64,000 nucleotides of DNA from Branchiostoma floridae. Lineage: Eukaryota; Chordata; Leptocardii; Amphioxiformes; Branchiostomatidae. The stretch covers positions 2,646,342-2,710,341 of the forward strand of contig NC_049989.1 in the NCBI RefSeq assembly GCF_000003815.2, read 5' to 3'. Made by a program: the position numbers and the translations under genes. Below are positions 2,975 to 47,100 of this stretch, one piece after another (the first letter of the stretch is position 1; the number at the start of each line of letters is the position of its first letter). A model generated the notes under the pieces. That model was not told the origin of the DNA, did not search any database, and saw only the letters and a program-made list of their open reading frames with translations.

Positions 2975-3040
2975 TTGATATTGTTTGCTTTTTGTTTGAA
3001 CCTTTAAATTTATTTATTCATGAAAAGCTCAAATCCGCCT
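2975..3040 (-). repeat. Dispersed repeat fragment shared with 33728 and 38468
   Basis: A TTATTCATGAAAAGCTCAAA-like segment followed by CCGCCTGCAG matches 33728-33800 and 38468-38540, where it continues into GGCCGCTTTTCA. In reverse orientation the copies would read as an A/CAAAC-rich end after a GCGGCCTGCAGGCCGATTT-like core, which resembles the 3' end of a retroposon. The class assignment is inference. Confidence 0.5.
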
Positions 3041-3279
3041 GCAGTAATACTATGGCTGTTTTTAACATCTCTTGCAATCAGGTGGAATCTGAAAGTCACT
3101 TTTGAATAAGCATAACTTGAATTTGTAAGCTCTACTATTAGTACACCAGTAGGTATTGACAGTCACTCTCAGCTGCCAGCTGTACTGCATGGCTACCACC
3201 TGTGTCCCTCTAATGGGAATATCCAAAATCTGTGAGGGATTGTAATCCAAAGCAGTGACCCTGTAGTGTACCACTGATC

Positions 3280-3607
3280 TAGCCTGGAATCCAGCCGTAC
3301 TGTGCGTTGGTCGCTCTGCTCCTGCCAGTACGTCTGGCATTCGTTAGCATTGGAACGATCGGCATTTGAATATTCGCACACTTTATGTGCGCGATTTCTG
3401 ATTGGCTGTTGGCTCCAAGCCCCCTTCGCAAAGCACCACCAAGGTGGAAATCGAGCACACAGAATCATGTTTACAGTTCGTAATCGAACGGAACACTACT
3501 TCTATCTTTCCCGCATTAATGACCGATCGTTCCAATGCTAACGAATGCCAGACGTGTTCGCAAGGAAGTAGAGCGACCAAAGCACAACACGGCTGGATTC
3601 CAGGCTA
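3280..3607. mobile_element. Mutator-like MITE with 9-bp target duplication
   Basis: A 328-bp non-coding element with long terminal inverted repeats of roughly 90 bp. It begins TAGCCTGGAATCCAGCC and ends with the complement GGCTGGATTCCAGGCTA. It is flanked by the exact direct repeat CCACTGATC (3271-3279 and 3608-3616). Long inverted repeats plus a 9-bp duplication are typical of Mutator-like (MULE) elements. There is no transposase, so it is non-autonomous. Confidence 0.85.
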
Positions 3608-17600: not shown

Positions 17601-17617
17601 GAGGAATGTAAACGTAC

Positions 17618-20600
17618 GATTTGATGACATTGTTGATGCCCGGCGGTGGAAACGCCGTCTTGATCTGTAGTTTATATTGCAGAATGAACCTGGCAATGAC
17701 GTTCGTGTGCCCCCCTCCGGGGTTCGTGAAGGCGGGAACGTACAAGATCTGGTCTCCGATTTGTCTTAAGCGACGTAGCAACCGTTCATGGTCCTTTTTG
17801 CTCTTCAGCCATTTTCTATAGTACACAGGAATTACCGACGGATTCATCGTGGTAAAGTTTGCTTTCGAACCGACGTCTTTTTCGTACCCTGTAATTGGAG
17901 GAAGATTACACCTTATAACGAAATCCATGGAGTCGATTTCTCGACCGCATTTGCTGTTCAACACGATCCCAGAATTCCCTACGACTGCGCACGAGTTAAA
18001 ATGGCGGCCACGTAAAGGAGACTCCATTGGGGTCACCTTGAGGAAGTTTTCGGTGACGTTGAAATAACTTCCAGGTCCAGTCTCGTACTTGACGTGATGG
18101 CCGACGCTTAGGTCCGACGTCGTCATCGTCAGGTGTTTGTCTGGACTGTAAAGCTTCAATATGTGTTTTCTAGAGAAAGCAATGAAAATACCACTTTGTT
18201 AGTAAGATTCAAGAATCGATGACACCAGGATTAAAACTCACACTTTGAGTCAAAACCAAGTTATAAACGAGGAGTCTATCAATATCATCTTTATAACATG
18301 AACTCATTTTTTAAAAATATTAATTGATTCATACAAAATGATGAGACCAGATACAAATCGCTGAACATCGTTGTGACAAGGTCTAAGTGTACGTATACCC
18401 CTAACGATCTGACATTTCTTTGTAGGTGTATCCAGGAGTCATCCTAGCCCTCAACAACAAATGCCTTCGAAACCATACTTCCAATTCTCCAAGTTTCCTG
18501 TTACACCACTTTCGCCTTACATGCTGCCACTGTAGAATATTCACATAACTGTGTACGCATACCAGGACAAACAAACAAACATTTATAATACCTTAATTTT
18601 GTTTTTAAGGAGGTAAAGGGATACAAAACGTATGAAATGGTAAAAAAAGCAAAACTATCCATTCAGATAAAGGGAAAAAAATTACCTCATTTTCTCCACC
18701 TCTGTGCTGTTATAATATCCCGGCTTCAGTGTTGTACTATTGAGTGCTTTAAACGTCTCTGTGAGGAAAGGCAACTCCGGTTTCGCGCCAACAACTGGCT
18801 TTGGCTTCCTGACACGTTTGACGACTCGGACAACTTTCCTTACCCGCTTCTTCGGAGGTGCTTTTACTGCCTCAGGTTTGGTCGAGTTTGTCGCAGCATT
18901 CGGGATTTGTTTCACCGCACTGGACGACACTAAAGAAGTTTGATTCGTAGTGTTCTCGGTACGCAATAGTGATGCTACTGGTGGTATGTCTTCCACCATG
19001 GATTTGTTAGCCACTGTTTTTATCAGGCTATCTAAAGATTTTTGTAAATTTGGCGAATCTGTAAGTTTTCTTGTTCCATTGTTCGTCTCCTTTTTTGGTA
19101 TTTCCGGAGTCTTGCGTTTTTTCTTGCGTACTTTGATAACTTTGACTATTCTTCTAACTTTTCTCTTCGGCGCTGGAGCCTTTTGGACAGTGTTATTTTG
19201 AGGTAACGTGTTGTTATTTACAGACACGGTGTTATTATTAAAAGTCACGATGTTTTTATTTTGAGGCACGGTGTTTATGTTGTTTACTAAGGACTGTTTT
19301 CCAGTCAGGAAAATTGCCTGACCAGCGCTGATGTTGCGCAGACTACCGGAGCGTGTTGGTGTCGTCATGACCATGTCTTCCAGCACATCGGTACTGGAAA
19401 AGAAAGAAGCATATAACAATAGAACCAATGTTAGTCATACCTCATGACATTTTATTCGTTGTTTCTACACGTGCAAGTTAGAAACATTGATATCAAATAT
19501 AATTACACAGTAGTAGCCATGAAATTTCATCGTTCAGAATGACTTTATTCATGCTTTAAAATGCTATGTACCGAATTATCTATCTACACTCTTTTCTTGT
19601 TTCAGTTCAAGCTATAACGGTTCTTGAGTTACATCTGACAGCTAAATGCATTAATCTTAATCGTCCGAATTTCGCTGAACTCTCATTCTCGAGAAAAAAT
19701 ATAAGGGCTGTAGAAAATTATGGGTCAATGCCATATCGTTAACTGAACGTGTATGGTCATTTGGAATAACTTCATTTCTGGTAATTGTTTTCTATATCAA
19801 ATGCGATTAGTTTTATTGATTGTATCTACGATACAAATCAATTGTAAAATACTGTACCTCCATAGCTTGGGCGTGTCCCATTTTACATTTTATGGTTAGT
19901 TCAACTTTGGAAAGATGCTTTTGTCTCCAGCTTTTCATCATGTGAAAAGGAGCACGCAACCACTACACATGATAGTGCGGTTATGGTACCGCTCTTAAAC
20001 CTTGATTCACTTGTCATTGTGCTTGTCGGAAGGAGATAGGAACCTGGCTTCTCTGTCACGAGCAGTGGAATAATAGCTCTTCAGTCACCTAAACTTAGTC
20101 TCTACCAGATCGCTGGAAAAATCGTAGAAATGGAACAAATAGAGGAGTAAGCCGACCAGGGAACATATTTATATTCCGGTTATATTCCTCTGGCCGGCTT
20201 ACTCCTCTATTTGTTCCATTTTTACGATTTTTCCAGCGATCAGGAGTCTGGTAGAGACTAACCTAAACTGGTCGAGATCACTTTCTGCCACCCTTCTACA
20301 AAAAGCTTACGCAGGCTTAAATTTTCAAACGAAAGACGTCTGAAAACATTCAACATAAAATGATATTTTGGAAGCTCTTTCCCTTCAAAACAACCAATTT
20401 CAATAGAATGGCCTGGACAATTTAGCTCGGATAATTATTGAAGCCACACCCCACCACACAAAACCCTAGCATTCAACACGTGTTAACGTCATCTCATTAA
20501 TAATGCAAATATGCTCCGCAACACATAATATGCCGAATTTACAATATTCACAGTCTCATATTATTCACAAATTCACTACATCTGAGTGGCAAATATCACA

Positions 20601-24049: not shown

Positions 24050-24600
24050 GTAGTTTTTTGTCGTGATCACCTATTGAGTGGAATCTAACGTTACTATCGA
24101 GTGTGATTTGATCATGATCACCCATAGACCGGGATCTAGTGTTGATCATGATTACGTTTTGACAGGGATCCAGGATTGGGTGAGACTTAACAAAGATCAT
24201 TGGTCCTCTGGGTCTAGTATAGAGTAAGATTTGATCTAGATCACGTACAGGGATCTACTATTGAATGAGAGTTGGTCATGATCACATATTTAGTGGTATC
24301 TACCGTCGAGTGTTTTTTTAATCAAGATTACGTTTTAACAGGGATCGAGGATTGTGTGATTGAGATCGTGGATCCTCTGGGGTCTACAATTTAGTAAGAT
24401 ATGATTAAAATCACGTACCAACAGGGATCTGGTGTTGAATGAGATTTGATTTTGATCATATTTCACAGGGATCTAGTATTGAGTGAGATTTGATTATGAT
24501 CACATATCGATAGAGATCTACTATCGAGCGTGATGTGATTATGATCATATATCGACAGGGATCTAGTGTTGCATGAGATCCCGATCACGGATCCTCCGGG
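24050..24600. repeat. Minisatellite of about 36-50 bp in the 3' region of the SH3 gene
   Basis: Roughly a dozen degenerate units contain GGGATCTAGTATTGAGTGAG and TTTGATTATGATCACATAT. They begin just at the stop codon of the PX/SH3 gene (24585-24587) and fill what should be its 3' untranslated region. Near 24463-24590 the array reads open on the minus strand, in a frame different from the gene's. Confidence 0.85.
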
Positions 24601-26262
24601 ATGGGGTCCTGTATGTAGAGGGATCTGACCCCGGATCGGCGGTTGGACGACTTCTTCAGACGACTGCCAATCTCCATGATGGAACACCTGCCGATAGAAA
24701 CGGTTTCCGTAGATTTGTAGTTTCATAATGAACATTGTCAATTGTCATTGAGTGAAGATCGTCTAAACATAATGACATTACGATTTAATACGGTCCTTCA
24801 TCATCGAGACCTATCCTCGCAACCCTGCCGACCAACTGGCATATCCCAAGCGCAGATGACCTTGCTCATGATTAATTCCCAACCATTGTCTGGAGGAGGC
24901 CGGGAGGTCATGTGTGACATGGATTTAAGGTTTCCTTAGAGTCCAACACTTTGTTCTCGTATACGATTCTTACGCATTCAACCCGTTTTCTAGTTAGATG
25001 TAATTGTCTTGAATTGTTCCAGCACATTCTAGCGACGGATATCACTCGAAACGTCCGGAAGTAAATCTGTATTTGAATATTGTAATACCTGCATGGTCGG
25101 ATGTCTAACCTTCATAAACGTAAAACAAAGTTGGTTGTTTGTTCGGTACCTTCTCGGCGGCGCTGCGTTTTCCAGCTGCTCCGGCAGGATGAAGCTGATG
25201 TCGTGTAACCCCAGGGCCTTCATCTCCTCCTCCTGACTACTGCTGGAGGTACTGCCGGGCCGACTTCTGGGGTGTCTTAGGTCCTTCTTGTACCGACGGG
25301 ACACCTTGTTCACCTTCTTTAAGTAGGTAGCCGGAGCAAAGCCTTGCTTCTCAGCGATACTGTGGTAAACAGACGAACAGGCAGAGATCAAGATCAATAG
25401 ATCTTTATGCTCAATAGGAGGCACGTACGTTCGTACTCAGTCAATGAATTGAAAATTCTAATCATGATGTTAAATGATGGTGCAAGATGGCGCATACATG
25501 ACGTCAAAATTCAACATGGCGTCACCTACCGACGCAGACGAAAACAAAACGTTTTTATTGCTATCGCAGATTTCTGTGTAATCGAAGTGTCTACTTACCT
25601 GACTAGCCACCAGCCATCCAAGTTCTTCATGATGACCTCTACCCTTTGACCCTTGTCGAACTGCAGCTCATCCTCCATCTGCGGGCTGTACGCATGCGTG
25701 GTGATGTAGGCGGAGGACCGACCCTCCATGAAGACCGTGTCCCTCTGCGGATCGTGGTCGATCGGCTCCAGGTAGGACCCTGGCGCCCAGCCCTCGTCTT
25801 TACCTATCCACACGTACCACCACCCTAGGGTTCCGAAAAATACAGTATCGTCAACTGCTATAGCAAGGTCTATGCCACGTTATATAATTAAGTACTATCA
25901 AGAAAAGTTTGAAGAGAAGAGTTGTACAGAAAAGTTGTGCAGAAAAGTTACACAGAAACGTCAAACAGAAAAATTGTACAGAAAGTTGGAAAAGTCACAC
26001 GGAAAAGTTATACAGACAAGTTCGAAAACGTCAACGTAGCATGATTGCAAAGGTGCATCTATGTCAATTTCAGGCATTCTTACAAAACGTGTAATCAATA
26101 TTAATGCATTGCTCTGCTGTGGGATTGAGACGTTACCGTTTTCATTCTTGTGTATGACGTGCACGGTCGCCCCTGCAGTGAAGCTGACTTCCTTCTCGCA
26201 CGTTTTCTCGTAAGCACCGACAGCTCGGTACGTTTCCGTCTCTAGGTTCCTTCTTCTCGCTT
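24585..26262 (-). CDS. SH3 cassette 3 and C-terminal basic segment, exons 18-21
   Basis: Exon 18 starts SH3-5 ([19 protein letters not shown]). The 226-bp exon 19 holds both its end ([20 protein letters not shown]) and the first half of SH3-6 ([20 protein letters not shown]), whereas cassettes 1 and 2 split these between two exons, so one intron was lost here or gained there. Exon 20 ends LENAAPPRR with the Arg split by a phase-2 intron. The last exon reads [20 protein letters not shown] and ends EDP with TGA at 24585-24587. The PPRRCSI plus Arg-rich tail is the best match to the p47phox autoinhibitory region. Confidence 0.88.
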
Positions 26263-29200
26263 CTGAAATCGATAAAAATTAGATTTAAAACTTCTGTTTA
26301 TAGCTATACAATGTAAAATTAGTTGACAGTGTATGCAAGTTACATGTTCTGATCAAAAGTGGCCGAAAGAAAGGAAACCCCACTATTGAAAAGTTACAAT
26401 TTCATTGCCAAAGTAGTGGGATAGACTATGGCGAGTACTGATTGAGAGTTGTCAGGAGACACACCCCTGTAAATTTGGGGGAAAAGTCATGTGGTTATTG
26501 CAGTCACTGCCCACAATTCCAGTCACAGTACATGGCATATTGTATCTGAAGTTACCACTACAGCCTTGTTACCTCCGTAAAACGGTATTTTTTTTTTCGG
26601 TGTGCCTGTTTGTGCGTGCTAGGCGTGTCGGGGACACTAAAAGGAAGCTAGGCTTTAGGTCCCAGAGTTATCTCATTTCCAATGTTCTATTTCCTGCTCC
26701 ACGAACGTGTCTCCAATTTTCTACTACGTATATGTGTTACCTTAATCAAGCGAAAAATGCGCCAATGGACCTTAAGAATCAACGAGATATTCGTAAAAAA
26801 AATGAATAAAAGAAAAATATCATCATAAATAGGTACGATTTCAAATCTTCCAGCACTACCTTCTTCAGCTGATGTCATTCTCTTCAAGGTTTGCTTTGCG
26901 CCATGGATGCTACCACTCTCTGTCGGAGGGGGAGGCAGGTTGCGCATCAGGACGTCCCGGGGATCTCGGCTCTTCAACTGCCAGTTGTCACCTGCCAAAA
27001 TTCGGGAGTAAATAGTCTCGTTTCGTGACTTTTCTTAAAGTTGCACGCAAAAGTTAGCACCAACATAGTGGAAAATCTTAAATCAACGGATAAAGATTAA
27101 GAAACTATACAATATAAAGAGAAATTAAAAGTGACGGGCACCAGGGAATTTCATACAAAATGTATCTGACCAGAATTTGAACAGCTCAAACGCATAACAT
27201 TTTACAGACATACTGCAAATTCGTATATTTTCGCATTAACTGAAAGAGGAAAGTAGGTTTTCGAGGCGTTCTGGATTCTTTAGCGCACCAGTAATGCATT
27301 GGATACTGATATTCGTGAATATGAATAAAATCACCGAGAACAATTGGAGATTTACAGTACCTAAACATGAGACTGCTGCGTCATCTTCTGGCGACGGGCT
27401 CCCGCATTCCTCACTCTTCACCCTCTCCATTGCCACGCGGCGGAACGATGGGTACATGGAGTCAGCCACGGAAATGGTGCACCTGTGTGGAACGGTGAGA
27501 AGTGCCATGTTGTGTCTGGTGAAAGAACTGCTGTTGCCTTGACATCTGTACACGCGGCTGGCCTTGCTTATGCTACGGTCACATTTCTAAACCGGGACCC
27601 GATCCGGATGTTTGTGGAAACGAAAAGTAAGTGTATATCAAGGAATATTGTGTGCCCCGTCGTTTTATGTATCCACAGAATTGTCCCGTATGACTACCGG
27701 ATACAAAGAGGTACCTCTCGGTGTTTTCACGGTTTAACAGTTTACGGCGTCTATTTGTCGCCGGGGTCAGAGCTGATTTTAACTTCGAGTTTAAAAATTC
27801 GGGGCCCGACAATGTCACAAAATAGCCCGGTAATCGAAGGGTGTCTTACATTGTCACGTCGGGGTTACGCCCGAAAATGCAAAGAAACTGAAAACAGCCC
27901 GTTAACTACCCGGCGGAGCCCCCTTTTCCTATTGTGAACGTAGCATAGCTATATATGTGATGCTGAATAAAGGTCTACTTATTGAAAGTCGAACTTTACC
28001 GTCTGGGAGGCGGGGCTTTATCTGCTATCTGTGTTTCCTCGTCACTCGTCTGGGCATTTGTTCCCTCCTGACGTAACAAAGAGAAACATAATAAGAACAA
28101 TATATATCGTAGAAAGTAGTTGCTTCTACTTGTCATTAAGCTGCCAGTCCTCTGCTGTACAATATTCTTTACGTTTTTTGCTTTAGTTTGTCATCATTGT
28201 TCATAATTATTTAGAAATCTCACCGCAGGTCCACCGTAAGGATACTCCAGACTCTGCCCGACGTCCTCTTTCGCCAGGTAGGTGGATGGCGCGAATCCTT
28301 CTTTGTCATTAAACCTGAAAAATTCAGGATGATCACGGATATGCGGTAGATGATACGGATATCAAGGAATTGGTCTATTATTGATAAAATTTGTTGGGAA
28401 CTATCAACCAAGTATTAACAAAATTCAACTATATGACTAGAACATTTGCAGTAAGGCCAGACGTTAATAATCAATTAAAATTCTTTTAGGTCTATCAATA
28501 TTGTATGTCATGATCAAAGACCCGTGGTCCCCCAAGCTATAGATCGGAGGCCTGATGGAGAAAGAGAGAAGGACCCAGCGTCCCAGTGTCCTAGCGTCCA
28601 TAGGGCTTCCCTTGCAATCAGTTCAGATTATGGCGTAGGACAGACCCAGATGGAAGAAAAAGGTCTCGTATCATGTCTCTCCAGTGAGGAAGAGGATAAG
28701 TACGTTTGCTCAAAATGCCCTTCCCTTTTCTTCTTTCATTCTTTTACAATAAGGTACAACTTACTTGACGAGCCACCAGCCGTCCAGATACTTCCTTAGC
28801 ACCACCAGGGTCTCCCCCCGCTCGAAATCCACCTCGTCTTCGTTCTCTGCGTGGTAGTCAAACTTGCTGATGTACCGCTCGCCTGTGGTCGGGATTCAAC
28901 ATATAGAAGTCAGGCTTGTACAGTCACGCACGCCATCTACCTCTTTAAGTATCAGATTGCAGCTGATATAGTATAACGATAAAGGCATGCATGAAAAAGT
29001 CTATGAGAAATACTTTTTGGGTTTGTAATTTTCGGTGAACACAGTCAAGCAAATTGCTTATACCTCGAATTTTCGGTCGCACATCCGTTGACCTTCTTCA
29101 GGAGTGGTGATTCAATTAAACTGAGCACGTGACAATGGGGACACGTAACTTGAGTAATTAATTGTAATTGCCTGTAAAGCTTCTATGATTGATTACCAGG

Positions 29201-32200
29201 GCTATATCGGCCCCATCTTACAGCCAATCACGATTCATACCTTGAGTCACGTGTCCCTAAAGAAGGTCGACGGATGTGCGATCGAAAATTTGAGGTAATC
29301 AATTTCCTAGTGTTGAACGAAAGGTAGGAACTTCAAAATGGATTGTACCAACACAGGTGAGCTTTAATTCTGCTATGAGAAATGCTAATTACCTTCTCCT
29401 AGGGCTATTTCGTCCTTTTCCGGGCAGTGGTCCACTGGTTCCAGGTAAGAGGCCGGAGCCCAGCCAGATTGACCCTTACACGTCACATACCACCAACCTG
29501 GTAGACACAAATATTATACAAAAACATTTTCCTTTATCCACCATAATGTTATGCCAGGCCCTCCGTTGGTATGTACCTTGGCGTACCGGCCTGCGATTCG
29601 TCCTTCTCGTTGCGCTGAGATCTGACTCAGCCGTCGCCAACCAATCACGTCGCCGCCTGCGATCAGAAGGGAACGTGATTGGCTGGTAACCTTCCCGCCA
29701 ATAGCGGCAGCAGCAGGGAGAGTATTTGATTGGCTAGCGGCTGGCAACGCTAACGCAGGCCGGTACACCTGGGTTAGCCTCTACCAGGCTCCGCGGATTG
29801 CTGCACAAATAGTCGAAACTGTCAAAATAGAGTGAATAATATGATAAAAGATTTGGTCGGCCAAGAAATCCGATATAATAGGCGAACCACGGATCCCGGA
29901 GCCTGGTAGAGGCTACGGCTTGGTCGGTGGGCCAGGCATGATCCATGCGTTGTTCCTCGTACGTTGTAAATATCACACCAAAACTGAAAATACTTGAATA
30001 TATGAAATATGACATGCATTGTTTGTGGCTTGAAAAGAAAGAAAATAAATTCTTACCGTTTTCGTTTTTCTTGATGACGTCTACCGTGTCGCCGGCCTCC
30101 AGGCTGATCTCCGTGTCGTCCATGGACTGGTAGGCGGCGATAGCGCGGTACTGCTCCGGCTCGGCAGACTCTGAGTCCGTGGCGTCTGGTGGCGACAAGT
30201 TTAACAATGGGAGAAAGTTAATTCTCGCCAAGGAATGTAAATCTTTGTGATCAGTTTTGGAGGTGGTTCGGAAAATTTGGTAAAAAAATCAAAAAACAAA
30301 TATGTAGATATATCAGAGAATGTTTAGACATTAGAACTTAGTAGTGTAGATGATACGTGAAATATTTGAATTCAAGGGGGCTTTGATGAAGGGGGCTTTT
30401 TTAAGTGCGAAACAAATAAACAAATAAATAAACAAACCCTGAATGCCTTGTTGAATTGACATATCAACCTGATGAAAATGTTAATGGATGTTTCCAAAGC
30501 AACCGTAGTGTTTACAAATGTCATGGTAGAATGTAAGTTGTTTTCAAATGTTAAGCGTCTAGGTCTTTTTAGAATACATGGAGCTGTGTTTGACTGGGGT
30601 CCCTACCGAAGTCGTCCCCCCAGTCGCTTTCGAACGAGTCGTCGGAAGGGTCGGTGTTCGAATTCGGCTGTTCCTCTTCCGTCGTGCTGTTGTTCTCCGT
30701 GGAATTCTGGGTAAGAACGCTCAGCTGATGACGTAATCCTTCCAGACCGTAGAGGGTTGACCTATGGAAAATCAGTAAAAATTGGAATTTATAACATTAA
30801 CTAATTGGATACACTATGTCCAAGTGAATTTTTTTCCGTGCCCGCCACGGCACTTTATTCTATTCAGTCAACCTCTGTAGAAAGAGCAGAAGTACAAAAA
30901 ATATCGTACACATCGTTATTTAGTAGCTTTTAAGGACGTTACATTTTTCTAGCATCATCGGTCCCCTCAAGGACGCCCTTGGCTTCCTTAACGGAAGTTG
31001 TAAAATTCAAGTCCATTATTCCGATTTTAAGCATTCAGACATGTGTCTGCTAAGTTCAAGAATAGATATTCATTGCTTGATTGTCGATTGATTGATTCTA
31101 GGTGATTGATGACATACCGTATCGGCTGTGTGGGAGTCCCGGATGACAGGTTTGGCGTCTCCGACAGCAGAGCCTGTTTCTCCCCCTGCGCCACGGACAG
31201 CCGGTTCGGGTTCTTCCACACCTTTACATTAATGATGGGATCCGCTAGGGGCGTCAGGAACACGCACGGCGTATAGCCCTCCTTTCCGTTGTACCTACCG
31301 CGGGAGGGACGTACAATGAATGAAGGAAGGAAGGAAGGAAGGAATGATATGTAAATGAGGTGATGACAAATCTCAAATCTATTCTTAAGAGTTAATTTAC
31401 GTACAAGTCAAGGTAGTAGCCTTCATTGCAGGCTCTTTTTGGGTCTTTTTTTTCATATTTTTTGCTCATAATGCACTGTTGCTGGTCATTTCGTTTTGTA
31501 CTGAGTCGCTTGTACTGTCGTCCCGTAGAATTGACTAGCAAAAGTGTATTAGGAGCCAAAAAGACGAAAAAGGCCAAATGAGTCTGATGTTGAGGCTATT
31601 ACTGTTTCGTCTTTCATTGGCGCATAATACACTTTTGCTGGCTGTTCAGTTTTGTACTGGGTCGCTTGTGCTGCCGACCCGTAGAATTGGCCACCAAAAG
31701 TGCCTGCAATGGAGGCAGGTTAGGGAGTGTGATCTAGTGGCTCTGTGGTTTACACAGATGGCGACCAGGATGCAAGGAATGTGTTGAGTTGATTTATAAA
31801 TCCTATATTTCATGTCAATCATTTTGGAGGTACATGTGTAAACTATACCTTTAAAAAGAAGTCACTGCTAGATAAAATTCTATCAACGTGCTCATACGTG
31901 ATTAATGAGTTTTTGTTTCTATATAAAAGATGGAAGCATACCTGACAAGCCACCACCCATCCTGATACTCCGTGAGCAGCTCCACCACCGTGCCTTTCTC
32001 CAGATCTAGTTCATCCTCCTCTTGTGCACGATACTCATGGGTCGCTATATACTTCTTACCTGGATCAGAAAACATCATATATGAAAGTCAATAAAAGTTA
32101 GACATCCAGGTAATAAGATACGTCAAAAAGCAGTTACTCTAGCAACTGAGTATGGTTTTGGAAACATTCGATGTTTCAGATGGCATCCAACACTTTTCGT

Positions 32201-35200
32201 CAGTGTCACTGACATGAATATATAAACTTTAGAGGTGATTGCTTGACAAGATTAACTCTTAAGGCTCGATTTGTCTTCACCTTATCTTTTACAACTCTTA
32301 GATTTTTTGTTAAATACCTGTTGAACTGTAGGTCCTTAAGTCACAGACGAAATGTTTGCTACCCGAAACTTATGACCGTTTCCAAAATCTTGTTACCTTG
32401 CAACACGTTTTGATGCATTCTTTTCTTGTTATTTACTTTGTTTGCATGCATACTTTTAACACAGAGTAATAAGGGATTTCTCTTTAATAATAATAATAAT
32501 GGTTTATTTCACAGAAGCATTTCGCAGCCTTTAGGCTGAATTGCACACTCCTTTCACAATTGATTAATATACAGCTGGGTAAAATCCTATACATAAAATT
32601 TACAGCCTTAAGATTAAAAGTATTTTTAAATTCTATTGATATGATTTACAGCAACAGGATAATCTCAGCGTTTGTAATCCTTTCTAATCATGAACATTTA
32701 ACATTGGTGGTCGATACAATACATGATCATTTAACAATACAATAACAATACAAGAATTAAAATTTGATGGGGTTTTCATTCACATATCAACTTAATGCAC
32801 ATGTCTACATACTGTTATTTAGCAAAGTAGTTAGATATGGAATTGGGCTGTTTCTGTAGCGCTCTGTGTGTACTGGCAATGTGACTAGTTGATTGTTTTG
32901 TCGCGTTACCCTACCGCTGACGTCTCCTCTACGCTTGGGGAGCCAGTGTCGGTACTCGTCTGAGGCGTACAGGGTCTTCGCGAACTTCAAACAAAGGGCA
33001 TCCCGTCTATCATTGAGTTTCTCCAGGTTTAATACTTGACATGACAGTGAGTAACTGTGGTAGCTACTTCCCAGTATAATCCTAGTTGCACGCCTCTGTA
33101 TGTTCTCAATTTTCTTCCGTTGTCCGTTTGTCAGACCTCCATGCCACACAGGGGCGGCATACTCTAAAACTGGGCGAACAAAGCACTTGTAGACGGTCAG
33201 CAAATCCTCCACTGGTAGGTTGAATTGTCGAAGTCTGCACAGCAAGCTTTGTCTTCTCTTTGTTTTCAACCTTCCGCTGTGGTCGAATAGTACAACAGTG
33301 GTAGAGGTTTCTTGCCGCTGTTGCGTTGCTGAATCGAATATTTGCTTCCCTATGGTATCATCTATTCATTGTAATAAACAAGGGACATTTGTCTGTCATA
33401 ACTTAACTACGGACTATTGCAAGAAGGACTGAATCTCTCTACATCTCACTCCTGAATGATAGTTTTCTGTTTCATCATTATCTACTACTCACCGTTTCCC
33501 GCCTTCCCCTCTTGTTCGGTCCCCACGGACAGAGTGAGCGGTTCCAGGTATGACGCAGGCGCCCAGCCCTGATCGTCATCGATACAAATAAACCACCAAC
33601 CTGTGCGAAACAACAGTGAAGGTCTTTAAAATCCAAGTCAACAAAACCGTCCTATAAGAGACATACACGTTGCACGGTTCTTTACGGTTAAACCCATTTC
33701 CAAGGTACTGAAATGCCTTCCGTTGTTCCGTACTGTTTGTTTGAACCTTTGCTTATTCATAAGAAGTCCAAATCGGCCTACAGGCCGCTTTTCATTGAGA
33801 TCATGAAGGAAAGGTTAAAGGGTCAAACAATATCTCACTGTCGTTCTTGGTTTAAAGTTCTTATGCTCCCACTGTAGCGTCATGGACGGATTCACCTTGG
33901 CATTGGAGTTCGGGATGATCTTAGTTCATGAGCAATTGCTAAAATGATTCAGTAAAAGTACATTGCCTTTTATTGTATCATTGTTGAACGGATTTTAATG
34001 ACTTTAAACAAATGTTTATGTCCCATACCACAATCCCTCAATGGCTGCAATGGTATGTATATGCATATGTTTCATCGCAGATAAACCAGTCATTCATTGA
34101 TATGAAGTGCTAAGATATCAAGTGTGTACCGTTCCGAGTCTTCTCCATCACATCTACTTGCAGGCCCGACTCGAAGCTGATCTCGTTCTCCCCGCGGCGC
34201 TCGTAGGCGGCTATGGTCCGGTAGGGTTCCAGTGCCAGCGGGCTGGACACCTCGATGGGTGTGGGAGGTTCTGCCGTCTCGGGGGTTTCAGCCACTATCT
34301 CCGGCTGCTTCGATTGGCACTTCGATAGGCGGGCCAGGTTCAGAGCCGGCTTTTTCAGTGCTCTACAGAGAGAAACGGTGTTTTGTTTTTAGTAAAACAG
34401 AAGGAACATAGAAGGAAGAATGGCGAGGAAAGGAAAGGAGAGAAAAGTTTTCATAAGCATACTTTATAGTTTGTAAACGTTGCTGAAATGAATGCCACTA
34501 CGTACGATTTACGAACAAACATAAGGTAGCACAGAAAGTGACATTTAAGCACTCGTAAATACATCATGAAGGAAGTTGCAAGAGTGACAAAGCGAAGCCT
34601 TTGAGTATGCTTTGAAAGTAAATCGTTTTTTCTAAATTTGAAAAATACGTTCGGCATGAATGTAGATGTTTTGATTTTTTTTATCAACCTTAGCGATCTT
34701 CTTTAGAATGTTTGACCACTCTCCACCTTTTGCGTTGCTTTAATAAAAAAAGAAATGCCCTTCTGCATACCTTAGATGAACTTCATAAAAACGTTTAAGT
34801 CGCCAAACATGCTTAAAATTTTTCAAGATCCTTTGTCACAAAAGACAACATGGCGTCCCAAATCAAGTGTCCTCACTGACAAACACAGTATTTTTTGCGA
34901 CGCCTCAGGGGCTAGCCAGAGAGTGTATCATTACTAGAAACTGACTCACTCCTCTGACGGCGGATTGATGTCTTCTCGTTTGGCTTCAAAGAAGCGCAGC
35001 ACAAATTTACATCTTGATATCCTCGGTGGCAAGGCGATCAGTTCCTATGGAAACGAGAGAAAGAAGAAACGTGCGTAGCGTAATGGTTAGTGATCCACTT
35101 TCTGGACCAAGAGATCGCGAATTTGAATCCTTATTGTTGTGCGATACACGCTACTGGGAAGTCTCATAGTCCTTGAGCTCAGGACATTACACCGTCCAAT

Positions 35201-35578
35201 ATTTATTGCACTTGTCGAAAACAGCTAGGGGAATCTTTAGAGTCTAGCACCCTACGCATTAAAATGGCTACGGACACACAAGCAAACAAACAAACAAACA
35301 AAAAACAAAATCCTAGTACACGGAAATATTCGACGAGATAAGTCAAGACTATCTTTTGTATAAGATTCGGATCTTAGAACCAATGAAGGATAGATATTAG
35401 AGTAAACTCTGCTCTTACCCTGCAGAATTTGCCGACGTGAAGAAGACGTTTCTCCGCGATTTTCTGTGTCCGCGTCCTACCTAGGAGGATTCTTCCTGCA
35501 GAATCATGGTCACATAAAGAACATGTCAGAACCTGGATATATCTGTCTCCCAATGCTTTGAAGCTTTTGAATCAGATT

Positions 35579-35639
<61 letters not shown>

Positions 35640-38600
35640 GACACAGAGTGACACGTACAAAGAGAGATGCTCAGAGAGAGAGAGAGAGAGACATACACAC
35701 ACACATACACGCACACATGCAGAGAGAAAGAGACACACACACACACATACACACAGAGAGACACACATACACAAACGCGCTCGCACACAGACACAAACAC
35801 GCGCACATGCACACACACACATTATATTCTAACACACAGGACTTACCGGGAAGACGAGGAAGGATACGTTCCTTCTCATCGATGACACCTGCCTCCAATG
35901 GGAACATTTCTTCCAACTCATTCTGCAACAATGTTTTGAGGTATGTTATCCTTAGGAACAAAACTTTCTTATTACGAACACGACCTGTCCTACTTAGTAT
36001 CTATAAGCTTGCTCACGGTTTGGAGTGTGCCTGTGCAGTGACATGCACTGTGGGTAATATGTCAAAGTGCAAGGTCCCTTGCCATTTTTTACACGCACAC
36101 TTCAAACTATTATTGTAATATAGGTACATGTTGGCCGATTAAAATCAATATCGCTAAAGCAAAATCTGCTACAATTCAATAGCGTTAACCTGCCACACAT
36201 AGCCGACCTTCCTCCAGACCATTGTTGGAAGTTAGTTCTGGCCAAGGTTACTAAGTAATACCTGCGTTTGGGTAACAAATGCCTGTTTGTTTGTCTACTT
36301 ACGTGGAAATCATGGACAACGGAAAAGCGCCGGTAGATCACGTGTTCACTCCCCTCAGACCAAGTCACTCTCAGTACGTAAGCCTGGATGTCACAAACGA
36401 AAATCAGAAAATGTCATATGTCTGTGAAATAGCAGAGTACGTGGGAAAGGACAAACTCAAGCCGACCGCACACACTTACACCACATCTTCAGACAAGACG
36501 CTGGAGCCGTATATTTCCCGTCTAGAGCCGACACGCAAACATGTTTCGCCATGTGACTTCTTCAGTGCTTCGGGCTTGCATGTATGTGTCTCTCATGTCC
36601 GTGAAATAGAAGTTTTGGGAATTTCTTGTTCCATTCATTACACTGGCTCCAAAAAGGCATCAGACATGAATATAGCAGGTAATTGAAAGCAGGGAATGAG
36701 CTAACTTTTGATAGCTATCCTGTGACCTTTGACCTAACTTTGCTAACTTTCCTGTGTCTGGCGTGTGGAAATAAGTGTAGAAACACAGAAAGACAAAACA
36801 GATGCACCAAACAATACCCCCAATTTCATTAAGAGATATTATTGGAGTTAATTAAGAGATATGTATACGTTTTTCCTTGCCCTATATATAAATTTATATA
36901 GCTGATAACAACTAATCAACAGACTAACCACCAATCAACCAACCACCCAATAAAAACAAACAAGTGAAATGAAAACAACCATTACAGCCCAAACAAACCG
37001 CCATGACTACAGGAAGTCCTGGTGACCAGTTATGAATGTGAATGTCCATCCGCAGACAATATTCGGTAATATTCTAGGACGGGGACCGGAAATGATGATA
37101 TTGAGTCAGTGACATGTTTCCAAGACATTCATATTTCACTTTTTTTTCAAACAGGATTTTTCGCACGTCATTGTTTCTATCTAGAATAAATGACAATATT
37201 AAACGTTTTATTTTTCAACGAGATTGTTCAGAGCAAGGTCAAGGAATTGAACTAAGAAGTTGGAAATAACTGTGCGTGGAGATAGCGGTGGACATTTGTT
37301 TTGATATGAAGGTTGATGGTTTTACGCTTGTGTGGAGTTGTTTTTACAATACGATTTGTTGTTTTGTTTTGTTGCACATTGCCATCCTCGCCCACGCACT
37401 CCTGGTACTGCCCACCCACGCCCATTCCACACCATCTTCGCCACACGCACTGCATGCATGACAACTAGACTAATTTTGGGCATATCTCTCTCCGTTTCTA
37501 ACATAGAAAATAAATCGAACGACCAGTTTATAGGTTCCCTAGGAAGTGAACGATCACTTCTTACAACACCTGGGAGAAAAACTAGAAAAAAAGACAAGAC
37601 GTATTCGCGACATCGCAGCACCGCTGAGAAATTTTATAGATGGACAGATCTCAGCGAATTTCACAGACAAAAGACCAAATGTTTCTACGTTTTCTGTGTC
37701 TCATTTTCTTGTACATCACACGTTTTCATCTGTCGTACCATCCGACGTACTAGTATGAATCTATACACAGGTGCAATTTCGATCGCCGTCCAATGGAAAG
37801 GTTGTCTTAAGGAATCATGTCCTTCTTTATGTTTACTGCAATCGCTGTGGTACTACTACTGCTACTGAGCCACTGTCCAGTATTATCATCATCATTAACA
37901 GGCAGCGTAGCTGATATTTTTATATCATTCTTGAGCATTAATCTCTTTCTGTGATTTTTAAGATTATCTAAACAAGTCACCATATTTGTATATGAGACAT
38001 CGGTATTTATCAAGGTCGCTATGATGTCGGGCGCCAATATTATTGATTTAAAAAACATATTGTATGTGGGTCTGTTTTCAATGTCAGTCCTGCTACTACT
38101 ACTGTCAGTCATTCTATGCAGACTACTATGACACTACGCAAGGACAATGACAATGTTGACTAGAAGACAAAAAGGTGTGCAAATTGAATACAAAATACAT
38201 AAACAAGACTGCCTGAAAAGCAGGTCTAGTTTCGACCTGTGTGTACACTCCTGGTAAACAAATAAAGTGAAAGTGAAGTTACATAATGGTGACCTTTTCC
38301 TATGCTATAAATGGCAACATGTACGTAAACACAAGGATATTACATATTAAAAATTACAATATGTTGCACTTGTGCTTTAAAAAAATTAAAAAATACAAAT
38401 GTGCGAAGTTGGCTACATTGTAGAGAGTGGTATCGTCAACAGTTTACAAAGAACAGGTCTGCGTGTGTTTGTTTCTTTGATTGTTTGAAATTCATTCATG
38501 AGAAGCATAAATCGGACTGCAGGCCGCTTTTCAATGAGTCAGACGTCGACGTCACGAAGGATTAGTATAGTAAATTTAGAACTGTAAATGTTAACAAACA

Positions 38601-40456
38601 TTCCTCGTATATGTGGTGTCATCTTGGAATATTCCATAGTCTACATTGTTTACCTCTGAGTTGAAGGTCATGTTATCATTCAATCTTTTCGTCAGACAAA
38701 TCCTAATAGAGCTTACAGTCGATGCATATATTGTGACTGTCCATGTTTTTCTAGCAACCTGTGGAGCCTGGTAGAGGCTAAGACTTCCATACGGACCTCA
38801 TACGGACTTGAACCCACCCGAAAGGGAGTGTAATAAACTCCGGATGTGCACAGATGAATCATTATTTGATGAGCTTCCGTTGTAAAAAGAATTGATTATA
38901 ACTGTCACGTCTTTCAGTGCTACAAAATGCCAAAAAAATGACCCCCATCAAAGCAAACTGTCAGCACAGTCATTCACCCAAGAATACCGCGAAAGATTTG
39001 TTCAAATAAAGCCGTGTGACTTTCTTATCGTTTCTTCAGACATTATGTAACAGTAGCACATTCTCAGAACGTAATTTGCATACGCTAGATTCTGAACGAT
39101 CAGCCTGGCTGGTGAATTGTTTGTATTTATCTATAATCAGTGGCAAAGTCAAACTGTAGTACTGTCTATTTATCACATTATTTTAGTTCAAAAACGTTTT
39201 TCATTCGAAACAGTGTTAACTTCTTTTACACGTCATAATGGTTGTCACAATGATATTACAATATTTCACCAGTACATTTAGAGAAAAGTTATTCTCCTTT
39301 TACACCCCTCTATCACATAATTTCTCTAGCAAGAGGTAAAAGATAACGTCTATTAGTGAAAAAACGTGATAGCACCCCTCTACCACATTAATTCATTAAT
39401 AAATGATTAAAACCGGTCTAAATTTGTGTCTCCTAGAGAAAGATGTGATAACACCCCTAAATCACATGAATCCACTAGTAAATAGACAATTATTGAACTA
39501 ACTGTTCGAAAACAAGTCATCACAACTAGAACACTATTCAGGGCTAAATATATGTGATAAATAATCAAGTCTGAAACTGTTAACAATAACTAGACACCAT
39601 TTAACCATTGACCAGAATAGTACCTCAGTTTTAATCTGTTATCTGGCATGTACAGAATCTTTTTTTAGAAATCATCACAGTTTCTTGATACTTGGTCAAC
39701 GCTATAAATTTCGTCTGCTGACTGCGATATTTTTCCCGGCAAAACATTTGAAAAACATATGAAAACCGCTACGGTATCTTAGATAGACGCTAGGAGTCTA
39801 GGAGAAACTTGACATGTGTTTTCCCAACCACAACCCACCTACCAAATATCATCAAGATCCATCCACAGCTCCTTCTTAGCGAAAGTAATTATAGACAGAA
39901 TACGGTTGCATAACACACGCTGCAAATTTGCTTTTTGGTAAGATGCATATATAATGTGTAAGCCACCAATCAGTTGTACTTATCTTTGTATTGCTATCTT
40001 TTTATGGCGTTGTTGTTTAAATGGATAGATTAAAAAATTAAAAAATTATAGACAGAGCATCATAAGTCTTCTTTGTATGCATTCTAGGAGCGGCGATATT
40101 TACTTTTTGGGAAAGCGCTGGTTCGTGAATTTTCAACATATCGGCCATGTTCCTATACCGGGAGGGCGGCAAAAACGATAATCTCTCTTCATCATAGGAA
40201 CCTGGACTACTATGTTGAAAAGATCGAATCAGTGCTCCCAAAAAATAAACGACGCTACTTCTAGAAGGCCTGCAAAGGATGCAAGGTTACACACGCGAAT
40301 ACGGCCCGGCGTTTATATGATTAAATACGATACGTTCTGTCGAGGTACTTATGATACAACAGCCATACTCACGTAGTGTTTCCTCGGCAAGTACCGCTTC
40401 TGTAAGCCCAGTGCCATCACATCGGTGACGTGCCGCTTGCTGTTGGCTGCGGGCAT
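24585..40456 (-). CDS. PX and six-SH3 protein, p47phox/Tks-like oxidase organizer
   Basis: Likely scaffold that binds membrane phosphoinositides and organizes an NADPH oxidase. Twenty-one exons join in phase to 878 codons including the stop (coordinates descending): 40456-40373, 36383-36303, 35922-35847, 35495-35419, 35044-34950, 34362-34130, 33600-33493, 32059-31942, 31294-31118, 30761-30607, 30185-30057, 29497-29393, 28882-28765, 28314-28224, 28067-28000, 27482-27361, 26991-26860, 26262-26137, 25824-25599, 25359-25150, 24687-24585. PX about 9-133; SH3 domains about 184-240, 253-308, 412-466, 482-536, 666-720 and 737-790; basic PPRR segments about 567-590 and 839-870. p47phox and NoxO1 have one SH3 pair and Tks4/5 have four or five SH3s; this has three p47phox-type pairs. 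The ATG opens [20 protein letters not shown], matching the p47phox N-terminus in length. All junctions are GT-AG. Family call firm; oxidase role inferred. Confidence 0.9.
26860..26991 (-). CDS. Linker exon 17 with NLPPPPT motif
   Basis: A 132-bp phase-1/phase-1 exon between cassettes 2 and 3. It encodes [20 protein letters not shown] followed by PPPTESGS and a basic tail (KQTLKRM). The polyproline run could be a ligand for one of the protein's own SH3 domains or a partner's; this is inference. The donor is GTAGTG, a weaker form. Confidence 0.8.
27361..30185 (-). CDS. SH3 cassette 2 with PPPRR segment, exons 11-16
   Basis: SH3-3 ([19 protein letters not shown], then [20 protein letters not shown]) and SH3-4 ([35 protein letters not shown]) repeat the exon phases of cassette 1 (1, 1, 1, 2). 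The 68-bp exon 15 ends KAPPPRR, with the last Arg split by a phase-2 intron, and exon 16 continues [20 protein letters not shown]. This resembles the APPRRSSI core of the p47phox autoinhibitory region. Several transposons sit in the introns (29063-29295, 29578-29768, 29775-29915). Confidence 0.88.
29063..29295. mobile_element. TA-flanked MITE in an intron of the SH3 gene
   Basis: Left arm CCTCGAATTTTCGGTCGCAC and right arm complement of GATCGAAAATTTGAGG, each extended by the shared CATCCGT(T/C)GACCTTCTT. TA lies on both sides (29061-29062 and 29296-29297). About 233 bp, with no coding content. Confidence 0.75.
29578..29768. mobile_element. MITE-like repeat, copy 1 of 2
   Basis: TGGCGTACCGGCCTGCGATT at the left faces CGCAGGCCGGTAC at the right. 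The internal CGTCCTTCTCG and CCAATCAC words recur in the copy at 63642-63770. It lies directly beside the MITE at 29775. No coding content. Confidence 0.7.
29775..29915. mobile_element. MITE of the TCTACCAG...CTGGTAGA family
   Basis: TAGCCTCTACCAGGCTCCG at the left is the perfect reverse complement of CGGAGCCTGGTAGAGGCTA at the right. 141 bp. The flanking nonamers CACCTGGGT and CGGCTTGGT match in 6 of 9 positions, consistent with a decayed 9-bp duplication. Confidence 0.8.
30607..34362 (-). CDS. SH3 cassette 1 and acidic linker, exons 6-10
   Basis: Exon 6 carries a proline-rich lead ([14 protein letters not shown]) and the first half of SH3-1 ([17 protein letters not shown]). Exon 7 completes it with [20 protein letters not shown], close to the p47phox SH3A signature. 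Exons 8 and 9 form SH3-2 ([20 protein letters not shown], then DGWWLV and [11 protein letters not shown]). Exon 9 ends TPTQPIR, where a phase-2 intron splits the Arg codon; exon 10 continues [13 protein letters not shown] and a polyacidic tail ([12 protein letters not shown]). The segment occupies the position of the autoinhibitory region in p47phox, but the PPRR core is degenerate here. Confidence 0.88.
31417..31717. mobile_element. Compound foldback MITE in the SH3 gene
   Basis: TAGCCTTCATTGCAGGC at the left faces GCCTGCAATGGAGGCA at the right. The core contains two copies of a TTTTGCTGGC...TTTTGTACTGGGTCGCTT-like segment that also forms the middle of the element at 61512-61642. It is therefore the same family, apparently a duplicated or chimeric copy. 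The target duplication is not clean. Confidence 0.7.
32115..32215 (+). repeat. Dispersed repeat, intronic copy in the SH3 gene
   Basis: AGCAGTTACTCTAGCAACTG, GGTTTTGGAAAC, GATGTTTCAGATGGCATCCA and TTTTCGTCAGTGTCACTGAC, in the same order as 44650-44735. Class unknown. Confidence 0.65.
32488..33290 (-). mobile_element. 5'-truncated CR1/L2-like non-LTR retrotransposon
   Basis: The minus-strand frame 33269-32805 encodes the C-terminal part of a reverse transcriptase: [20 protein letters not shown], then [17 protein letters not shown] and a [10 protein letters not shown] segment, typical of the thumb region of CR1/jockey-like elements. The minus-strand 3' end reads GAAATAAACC followed by (ATT)n, the microsatellite tail seen in CR1/L2-type elements. 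The catalytic domains are absent, so it is a dead 5' truncation. It lies in intron 7 of the SH3 gene, in the same orientation. Confidence 0.85.
33728..33800 (-). repeat. Dispersed repeat fragment
   Basis: Shares CTTATTCATAAGAAGTCCAA and CAGGCCGCTTTTCATTGA with 38468-38540, and its first half with 2975-3040. Probably a retroposon 3' end in reverse orientation. Confidence 0.55.
34950..40456 (-). CDS. PX-domain exons 1-5 of the SH3 gene
   Basis: Five exons with phases 0, 0, 1, 0 and 2 encode a p47phox-type PX domain. Exon 1 ends KRYLPRKHY and exon 2 (27 codons) reads [20 protein letters not shown], with the RRF motif at 46-48 whose Arg binds the lipid headgroup in PX domains. Exon 3 holds [15 protein letters not shown] and the PxxP loop ILPRLPG (77-80). 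Exon 4 has AEKR (Arg97), the second basic position. Exon 5 ends [20 protein letters not shown]. Exon 2 is the same length as the matching p47phox segment as I remember it. Intron 1 is about 4 kb; intron 4 carries a SINE-like copy and intron 3 a CA microsatellite. Confidence 0.9.
35070..35310 (+). mobile_element. tRNA-derived SINE-like element
   Basis: GTAGCGTAATGGTTAGTG resembles a pol III A box and CGAATTTGAATCC a degenerate B box about 45 bp further on. The unit ends in a (CAAA)n run near 35280-35302, a common SINE tail. It lies between PX exons, antisense to the SH3 gene. The call rests on box spacing and tail, not on a family match. Confidence 0.55.
35582..35830. repeat. CA and CA/GA microsatellite
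   Basis: A pure (CA)n tract at 35582-35637 is followed by GAGAGAGA and degenerate CACACATACACA stretches to about 35821. It lies in PX intron 3 of the SH3 gene. The Cys/Val-rich and His/Thr-rich frames here are artefacts. Confidence 0.95.
38468..38540 (-). repeat. Dispersed repeat fragment
   Basis: TTCATTCATGAGAAGCATAA and GCAGGCCGCTTTTCAATGAG match the fragment at 33728-33800. It lies in the large first intron of the SH3 gene. Confidence 0.55.
38744..38812. repeat. Half copy of a MITE plus shared flank
   Basis: AGCAACCTGTGGAGCCTGG and TAGAGGCTA are followed by AGACTTCCATACGGAC and a further stretch to GGACTTGAA. The same order, element end and flank together, occurs at 54046-54112. The two copies therefore share sequence beyond the element end. 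Confidence 0.75.
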
Positions 40457-44174: not shown

Positions 44175-47100
44175 ATGACGCTTGGTGTCTATACTGCCCT
44201 CGTCATCGGCTTAATCTTAACGACGAGTCAAGTCCATGGAGGTACGTACGGCCCTTAACATGAATGACTGAATGATAGCATCTCGTATGTCGCTACTGTG
44301 TCTTAATTTTATTTTGCCTGTTCCTGTGATGCATTATCGTGTGTCTAAAGGCGGTATCTCACTGCACTTGGGGCACTGCGGGGCTCGAAAGATTACTCAA
44401 CGAATTTCGACGAACGAATTTTCTTACGTTTTCGATTTTAGCTTTCCTCCCCGCTGACTGTCTGTACACCGTGACGAACGGCGGAGACTACCGCGGGAAT
44501 GTCAGCGTGACGGAGAGCGGCCTGTCCTGCCAGCCGTGGGACTCACAGTCCCCCCACCGGCACGTCTACACGCCTGCAGACTACCCGCAGGTAATAGATC
44601 ATTTATCACAAGTGCTAGATTTTCATGTGTAACAAGACTTTTACGCCAAAAGGAGTTACTCAAGCAACTGGATATGTTTTGGAAACGGTCAGACGTTTCA
44701 GGTAGCGTCCACTAGTTTTCGTCACTGACACTGAAGAGATCTTGTTGGAGAGGATTTTTATATCCTAGCTGTGAATTGATATATGTATGTAAAGGGCTGT
44801 AGTTGAAGAACAGGTTTATCCTAACTATGAATGCAAAAAGGAGGAAGACAGATTTTCAATGGCCCAGAAGCTAGATTTTTACCGTATAAAGTTTTGTCAT
44901 AATAGTTAATTTAGTTAATTTTAAGTGCTAGATGTTTATGTGTAACAAGAAATATGTTGATTTAAGGGTTAATGACCCGCTTTGCCATATTCATGGCCGN
45001 NNNNNNNNNNNNNNNNNNNNNNNNNNNNNNNNNNNNNNNNNNNNNNNNNNNNNNNNNNNNNNNNNNNNNNNNNNNNNNNNNNNNNNNNNNNNNNNNNNNN
45101 NNNNNNNNNNNNNNNNNNNNNNNNNNNNNNNNNNNNNNNNNNNNNNNNNNNNNNNNNNNNNNNNNNNNNNNNNNNNNNNNNNNNNNNNNNNNNNNNNNNN
45201 NNNNNNNNNNNNNNNNNNNNNNNNNNNNNNNNNNNNNNNNNNNNNNNNNNNNNNNNNNNNNNNNNNNTGTGAGTAAGCGCACTTAGTCTCACTATAATCT
45301 CCTTGAAGACGTGTTTTTGCCCGTTTTAATGTCAACATGTCTTTTTTTAGATTGCCCGAATTATAACGTTTATGAAGGGCAGGCATCCAGGTGAAAAATA
45401 TTAGAAGGTGATTCCATCTCCATAACTGGATAAATTTAGAGATTTACTACTGTGTCTCTGTCTGTGTTTCCGGATTCTTATAGTCAATATAACCCAAGAA
45501 CCCCTAGATGGACTACGCTGATATTTGGTATGTAGGTAGGTGTTGGAAAGACAAAGGTCAATGTCGATTTGGGGCTTTCTGGTAAGTGACCTTGGTACTG
45601 CAGCAAAACATCTGGGTTTTTATTATTTCTTTGAAATGTGTACTTTGNNNNNNNNNNNNNNNNNNNNNNNNNNNNNNNNNNNNNNNNNNNNNNNNNNNNN
45701 NNNNNNNNNNNNNNNNNNNNNNNNNNNNNNNNNNNNNNNNNNNNNNNTTCTACAAGTACGTGACGGACCCACTGAGGTTCACCCAGGGGAATGACTACTG
45801 TCGGGCAGAGGGCGGCTACCTCGCTTCCATTCACTCTGCTGAGGAGAACGACTTCGTCTATTCCGTCGCCGGACCGACCGCCGGTTGGATAGGCCTGACC
45901 GTAACAAACACGGTAAGAACAAGGTCAAGGAGCTTCTATCAAAGGAGGTTTGATGAAACCTTCTTGGTTAAGGTGCTATTCAACTGCACTTGGGGCGCCC
46001 GTGAGGCACTGCGGGTTTCGAAAGATTACTCAAGGAATTTCAAAGAAAAGAACGAATAGACGATTTTCTACGTTTTGTGTATTTTGTTGTCTTCTAAGTC
46101 ATATGCAATACGCAATATCTAAATTATAAATTATAAAAGCGACAGAAATAACAGAACAGTGCCGCAGTGAACCTGCCTTGCAGTGCCGCACCAGTGCAGT
46201 GAGATACCATCTTAAGATCTAGACCAGCCTAAGAACTAGATAGCTCTTGGGCATACCTCGAGCACGTAAAAGAAGCCGCCACACTTATGGAAAAGAGTAG
46301 GGGTCATTTCTGGTGTGGGTTGAACTGGGTTCAATCAAAAACATTCCGGCAAAATGGGGTAGGGGATTCCCGAGCAGCCTTCGTAACCCCAGCTTGGCTT
46401 ATTGAGTTAGTTAGTCGAACTTGCCGAAGCACATCTTTCTGACTTAAGAGAAGAGGTACTGCTACGCGTATACGGTGTTAGGTCAGTGCCCATGTGGCTT
46501 TACACTGACCAAACTCGTCAAAAAAGAGACAAAAACTCAAGAAGTGGTTGGTAGATCGTAATGATTTTCTTGTATCTTTTCTATCTGTTCTAATGTGTAC
46601 AGCGAGTGCTTGCGTGGCAGGATGGTACGTCTGTGGACTACCAGCAGTGGCATCCGGGCGAGCCGAGGTACTTCTACTCGCTCGCCTGTACCACCATGTG
46701 GTCAAATAAAGGCGGTAAGTCTTCATTATGCTATGTTGTCGTCATGTTCTGTATGTCATGTTTGTTCATTAGGTGTCCTCCTGCGATGTGTTATGATTTA
46801 TGATTTTCTCCTGGTCAACCCATGGAGATGTACAGGTGATTTGGAGCTTTGTATCGTGTCATGTTATCGTAATGTTTTATATGGCGTCGTAAGTTCGAGT
46901 GTGTCGTTTAACGATAATGTTTTCAGCATCTTTATGGATACATTTTGCTTCAGAAGACACGCACAGGTACAGACAGACAGGCACACACACACACATATGC
47001 AAGTAAAGTGTATCGAATCTTGCTTTCCCGGTGCATAGAAAAGCAATATGAAACTCTAAACCTTCCGAGGAAAACGTAGAAAAGTTTCTTGTTTATTTCT

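Follow-up and report, generated by a model that had tools for sequence, protein, structure and literature searches.

A predicted gene in a 64,000-nucleotide stretch of the Branchiostoma floridae genome (contig NC_049989.1, positions 2,646,342 to 2,710,341; called the window below) raises the question of what a protein with one PX domain and three p47phox-type pairs of SH3 domains may do, and whether it belongs to the NADPH oxidase organizers or to the TKS (SH3PXD2) scaffolds. The evidence described here indicates that the product is very probably an oxidase organizer with three bis-SH3 cassettes, which are numbered 1 to 3 from the N-terminus.

The gene was predicted on the minus strand, from 40456 to 24585, as 21 exons that form one open path from ATG to TGA, with GT-AG limits in all 20 introns. 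The 21 exon regions had been chosen beforehand by eye, partly in dependence on a preliminary description of this DNA, and a beam search then set the splice sites and phases. The top-scoring path has 860 codons including the stop and uses an exon-16 donor at 27415. A version of 878 codons (877 amino acids and the stop), which differs solely in its exon-16 donor at 27361, scored lower, is equally open and was adopted for comparison with the preliminary description. This model bears out the earlier account of 21 exons joined in phase over 878 codons. Pfam analysis likewise recovered the one PX domain (E value, 1.5e-11) and the six SH3 domains (SH3_1; E value, 2.3e-61; six stretches) that had been claimed, both above cut-off, and the SH3 signature motifs quoted at that time are present in the protein. 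The two exon-16 donors are both in frame and lie 18 codons apart; the linker after cassette 2 is possibly alternatively spliced.

When codon usage was compared with that of intron segments, 15 of the 21 exons had values of 0.05 or lower, and E2, E4, E5, E12, E16, and E21 were above this value. The weakness of the linker exon E16 and the last exon E21 by this measure, several low-scoring splice sites, and the alternative donors at exon 16 would suit a model that wrongly fuses two or three adjacent genes, with each cassette being a separate small protein. Such a fusion is considered very unlikely because a single frame is kept across all 20 junctions, neighboring cassettes lie a few hundred bases apart, and coding-like values were obtained for the linker exons E10, E14, E15, and E17 (0.018, 0.007, 0.000, and 0.000, respectively). 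In addition, a motif scan of the six frames of the 64-kb window listed 20 frames, of which 10 are exons of the model and the other 10 appear chance-like by eye, and only one PX was present among the frames scanned.

The relationship of the six SH3 domains was analyzed with the first and second SH3s of the window protein, human p47phox, human TKS5, and the TKS of the same genome. In this 12-sequence tree, SH3-1, SH3-3, and SH3-5 grouped with the first SH3 and SH3-2, SH3-4, and SH3-6 with the second SH3 of p47phox and TKS in 990 of 1000 bootstraps. After SH3-3, SH3-4, and SH3-5 of the TKS proteins were added (18 sequences), the split between first and second types was supported by 882 and 804 of 1000 bootstraps. 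Both reduced sets were run after a larger tree of 22 SH3s, and the value of 990 was obtained without the NOXO1, p40phox, and p67phox sequences that the larger tree contained. In the larger tree, supports were mostly 25–70, the second SH3s were not kept together, and the NOXO1 SH3s stood on long branches with wrong partners. The grouping supports the three p47phox-type pairs of the preliminary description and the alternation of first and second types that it expected, but not its expectation that p47phox would be favored over TKS, since both families fall together. The first SH3s of the window protein share 53–58% identity with one another and the second SH3s 44–47%, compared with 27–40% between types. 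Monophyly within the gene was unsupported both for the three first SH3s (85/1000) and for the three second SH3s (413/1000); at the level of pairs, it reached 780/1000 without NOXO1 and was lost when NOXO1 was included.

Intron positions recur among the cassettes as well. A phase-1 intron in the Gly codon of GWW, a phase-2 intron after GWWLV, and a phase-2 intron in an Arg codon of the tail are found in all three cassettes, and a phase-1 intron between the two SH3s is found in two of the three. These matching positions are far from chance. The linkers within the pairs measure 15, 14, and 15 residues, that of human p47phox being 15. GWW is present in all six SH3s, and [DE][DE] and PxxPhiL are present in all three pairs. 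The residues two before GWW (the -2 residues) are E and L in pairs 2 and 3, like those of human p47phox and TKS5; they are R and Q in pair 1 and P and D in NOXO1. The repeat unit is therefore larger than previously described, as it includes introns, linkers, and the autoinhibitory-type motifs of cassettes 2 and 3 presented below. Based on the tree together with the recurring introns, the latter of which do not rest on residues, the extra SH3s would most simply have arisen by copying of a whole p47phox/TKS-type tandem plus its tail.

With regard to lineage, the best match in the PDB was human p47phox (8wej; E value, 1.1e-59), with 106 bits for the PX domain (amino acids 12–147) and 101 bits for cassette 2, and the PX alignment retains the positions of human Arg42, Pro73, and Arg90, which are listed as residues of the lipid site (PMC2121648). 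Raw similarity argues against a p47phox assignment. The rank of p47phox in the PDB does not decide between the families because TKS5 is represented by single SH3 chains among the matches listed, which include no PX domain or tandem SH3 of TKS. The PX domain is 49% identical to that of the same-genome TKS, 46% to human TKS5, and 39% to human p47phox, and its grouping with p47phox in a PX tree has a support of only 60. The SH3 pairs share 41–52% identity with the same-genome TKS and 41–45% with p47phox, pairs 2 and 3 being slightly nearer to TKS, and pair trees leave the placement between p47phox and TKS undecided. Together with three intron positions of the tandem (in the Gly codon of GWW, between the two SH3s, and after GWWLV), which the window cassettes have in common with the same-genome TKS gene, and with the reported ability of TKS5 to serve an oxidase (PMC12730246), these identities would fit a second, divergent TKS-type scaffold for podosome-like structures in place of an oxidase organizer.

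This TKS-type scaffold is nevertheless judged unlikely, and the existence of a separate TKS gene in the genome weakens it in particular. That gene (contig C4, 21.84–21.88 Mb) encodes PX pieces that share 51–85% identity with human TKS5; its five SH3s follow the TKS order, with SH3-4 and SH3-5 within one 845-codon frame. All six window SH3s fell into the first- or second-SH3 groups, and SH3-3, SH3-4, and SH3-5 types of TKS were not found among them in the trees. Furthermore, the motifs in the window protein do not have the acidic sixth residue of the TKS motif PPPRRD/E, according to the rule given in PMC12730246, and early p47phox-like genes have been described as resembling SH3PXD2 more than vertebrate p47phox (PMC2121648). 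On these grounds, the window protein was classed as an organizer of the p47phox lineage. As a separate observation on the TKS gene, the frame of the second half of SH3-1 (C4, L021, approximately 9081–9200) breaks after GWWFVTVEDEQGW, which could reflect an assembly error, an allele, or an unusual splice.

Ligands of tandem SH3s have been defined by the rule [PAVIL]PPR[PR] with two subsequent non-acidic residues (PMC12730246). The window protein contains exactly two strict motifs of this kind, one after cassette 2 (amino acid 568) and one after cassette 3 (amino acid 840). None of 20000 residue shuffles had two or more strict motifs and 149 had one, and the presence of two is thus far from chance. 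Cassette 1 ends with TPTQPIRST, which has an intron at the corresponding place and no PPRR motif. In both motifs, the position of human Ser303 is occupied by Cys (Cys573 and Cys845), and that of Ser304 is Thr574 or Ser846. The two Cys codons lie at approximately 27479–27481 and 24684–24686 of the window, and a redox-sensitive lock is conceivable. The two PPRR sites are the sole strict or loose motifs in the protein, and a C-terminal proline-rich region of the vertebrate type was not found. Because the p47phox-like proteins of Ciona and sea urchin are also reported to be without this tail (PMC2121648), it would define vertebrate p47phox, not the wider family.

Partner genes were searched for in the 513.4-Mb assembly (431 contigs; the window lies in C11), with the exon limits of p22phox and p67phox read by eye. 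Two p22phox exons above the family cut-off were found on C6, and the tail QPPSQPPPRAPAH keeps PPPR. A p67phox gene on C8 gave two matches (E ≤ 0.01) with residues 1–223 of human p67phox and contains, in order over 16 kb, a TPR region, an activation-region-like piece, an SH3, a PB1-like piece, and a C-terminal SH3. The exon just before the PB1-like piece encodes the strict ligand PPPRPPS; a tandem-SH3 site has already been proposed in human p67phox (PMC12730246). In the same region (C8, L031, approximately 2978–3461), part of the exon for the central SH3 is repeated in tandem as several nearly identical copies. NAD_binding_6 matches at four places in the genome represent NOX- or ferric-reductase-type genes and were not assigned to NOX2. 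When the genome was searched with pair 2, 12 matches were obtained (E ≤ 1e-5), five of them in the window gene and two in the TKS gene; the other five were single matches of 34–40% identity on C12, C15, and C16, and no second organizer gene was seen within this search.

Considering these features, we propose that the protein is probably an NADPH oxidase organizer of the p47phox lineage, in which separate cassettes may engage p22phox and p67phox. Each bis-SH3 would form one composite groove, as p47phox does. At rest, cassettes 2 and 3 would be bound to their own PPRR motifs and shut, and phosphorylation by kinases at Thr574 and Ser846, which correspond to human Ser304, would open them. Cassette 1 may be unlocked or weak in the manner of NOXO1, as its tail lacks a motif and the two GWW-adjacent residues that pin the SH3s of p47phox together are not retained. 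After opening, the p22phox tail would be bound by one cassette and the proline-rich stretch of p67phox by another, and the extra cassettes would thereby replace the proline-rich C-terminal tail that vertebrate p47phox has and its tail-to-tail contact. The docking on p67phox extends both the reversed docking proposed for Ciona and sea urchin (PMC2121648) and the human p67phox site (PMC12730246). That cassettes 2 and 3 are locked intramolecularly is regarded as somewhat more likely than not, and the use of separate cassettes for p22phox and p67phox is suggested tentatively, at somewhat short of even chances. A more elaborate form, in which one chain has three separately governed cassettes (one open and two self-locked by the motifs with Cys573 and Cys845 in place of the regulatory Ser303 of p47phox) and the oxidase product opens or closes the locks while p22phox and p67phox are held simultaneously, would be a long shot.

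Alternatively, all three cassettes could bind p22phox, and the protein would cluster several oxidases through avidity with no bridging between p22phox and p67phox. The retention of GWW, [DE][DE], and PxxPhiL in all three pairs and of PPPR in p22phox agrees with such clustering. The cassettes are, however, unequal, because the -2 residues are changed in cassette 1 and two cassettes have a motif of their own, and the better ligand is in p67phox; clustering is accordingly regarded as somewhat unlikely.

Other results weigh against the proposed organizer with locked cassettes. The linker within the pair is clearly acidic in pair 2 alone, those of pairs 1 and 3 being weakly acidic. The NCF1_PBR_AIR profile (PF16621) of the p47phox autoinhibitory region (AIR) matched cassette 2 with an E value of 0.002 and 18.4 bits, which is below the 25-bit cut-off, and was silent on cassettes 1 and 3 in the Pfam scan, and alignment of the human p47phox AIR to amino acids 834–860 gave only 1.0 bit. 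With the profile below cut-off or silent, it is the short motif, its location, and the intron that speak for the putative locks. On the partner side, the p22phox tail fails both the strict and the loose motif rules at one residue, the fifth being Ala. Of the p67phox pieces, the C-terminal SH3 alone passes its Pfam cut-off, and those for the TPR, first SH3, and PB1 fall short of theirs. The exon with PPPRPPS is proline-rich, and chance is not small, as 104 of 20000 shuffles also had the motif; the neighboring proline-rich exon of p67phox has no motif, though 2786 of 20000 shuffles have one.

Table 1. Features of the predicted three-cassette gene, in window positions
Feature	Position	Strand	Evidence
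Whole gene model, 21 exons, 877 amino acids and stop	24585..40456	-	Splice-site search
PX domain, exons 1–5, amino acids 1–138	34950..40456	-	Pfam PX, amino acids 35–127, E value 1.5e-11
SH3-1, first-type, cassette 1; phase-1 intron in Gly codon of GWW	33536..34229	-	Pfam, tree
SH3-2, second-type, cassette 1; phase-2 intron after GWWLV	31246..32057	-	Pfam, tree
Cassette-1 tail; phase-2 intron in Arg codon; TPTQPIRST, no PPRR motif	30607..31245	-	
SH3-3, first-type, cassette 2	29433..30156	-	Pfam, tree
SH3-4, second-type, cassette 2	28266..28880	-	Pfam, tree
Autoinhibitory-type motif 2, amino acids 568–574 PPPRRCT and basic stretch, split by phase-2 intron	27398..28013	-	Regular expression
SH3-5, first-type, cassette 3	25760..26236	-	Pfam, tree
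SH3-6, second-type, cassette 3; no intron between the two SH3s	25311..25714	-	Pfam, tree
Autoinhibitory-type motif 3, amino acids 840–846 APPRRCS and basic C-terminus, split by phase-2 intron	24585..25163	-	Regular expression

Within the intron between exons 7 and 8, an open frame of 154 amino acids on the minus strand (32805–33269) resembles the end of a retroelement reverse transcriptase by eye and has no Pfam match. A 45-base tandem repeat of 3.6 copies lies immediately past the stop codon (24421–24579). Neighboring coding pieces were identified as sialyltransferase family 29 (17578–18159, minus strand; E value, 1.8e-31) and C-type lectin (45586–46056, plus strand; E value, 5.6e-7).

Human p47phox/NCF1 shares with the window protein the PX domain, a bis-SH3 with a 15-residue linker, GWW, and an APPRR-type motif after the pair. 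It differs in having one cassette compared with three, in its C-terminal proline-rich tail, which was not found here, and in Ser303, which is Cys in both window motifs. The p47phox-like proteins of Ciona and sea urchin, which have three and four SH3s, respectively, are also invertebrate organizers with PX, bis-SH3, AIR, and extra SH3s and without the proline-rich tail (PMC2121648). In contrast to the window protein, the extra SH3s of the sea urchin protein, at 367–430 and 561–618, form no close pair, and a repeated cassette of bis-SH3 and AIR is not among the features described for either animal in the available part of the source (PMC2121648). NOXO1, which is considered a vertebrate duplicate (PMC2121648), has PX and one bis-SH3 and, comparable to cassette 1, no AIR; its identity is 25–28% over the PX or pair, and it differs from the three pairs and two PPRR motifs of the window protein. 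TKS5/SH3PXD2A and its same-genome ortholog share the PX domain, the tandem SH3 together with three of its intron positions, and a PPPRR motif; they differ in the types of SH3-3, SH3-4, and SH3-5, of which SH3-4 and SH3-5 are intronless, and in a PPPRR that is followed by an acidic residue and unsplit by an intron.

The preliminary description knew of no protein with this layout. A repeated cassette of bis-SH3 and lock was not found in reports of the open-licence literature, but p47phox-like proteins of invertebrates that contain three or four SH3s were already in print (PMC2121648). It has been concluded that intrachain tandemization of SH3s is probably confined to the p47phox family, the first two SH3s being the tandem (PMC12730246).

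If the proposed arrangement is true, locked and unlocked cassettes could be compared side by side within one protein. It would also point to a way in which p67phox could be held by an organizer that has no proline-rich tail of the vertebrate type, and the reversed docking proposed for invertebrates (PMC2121648) would become directly testable. The protein would therefore provide a new approach to testing the activation of oxidases of this kind.

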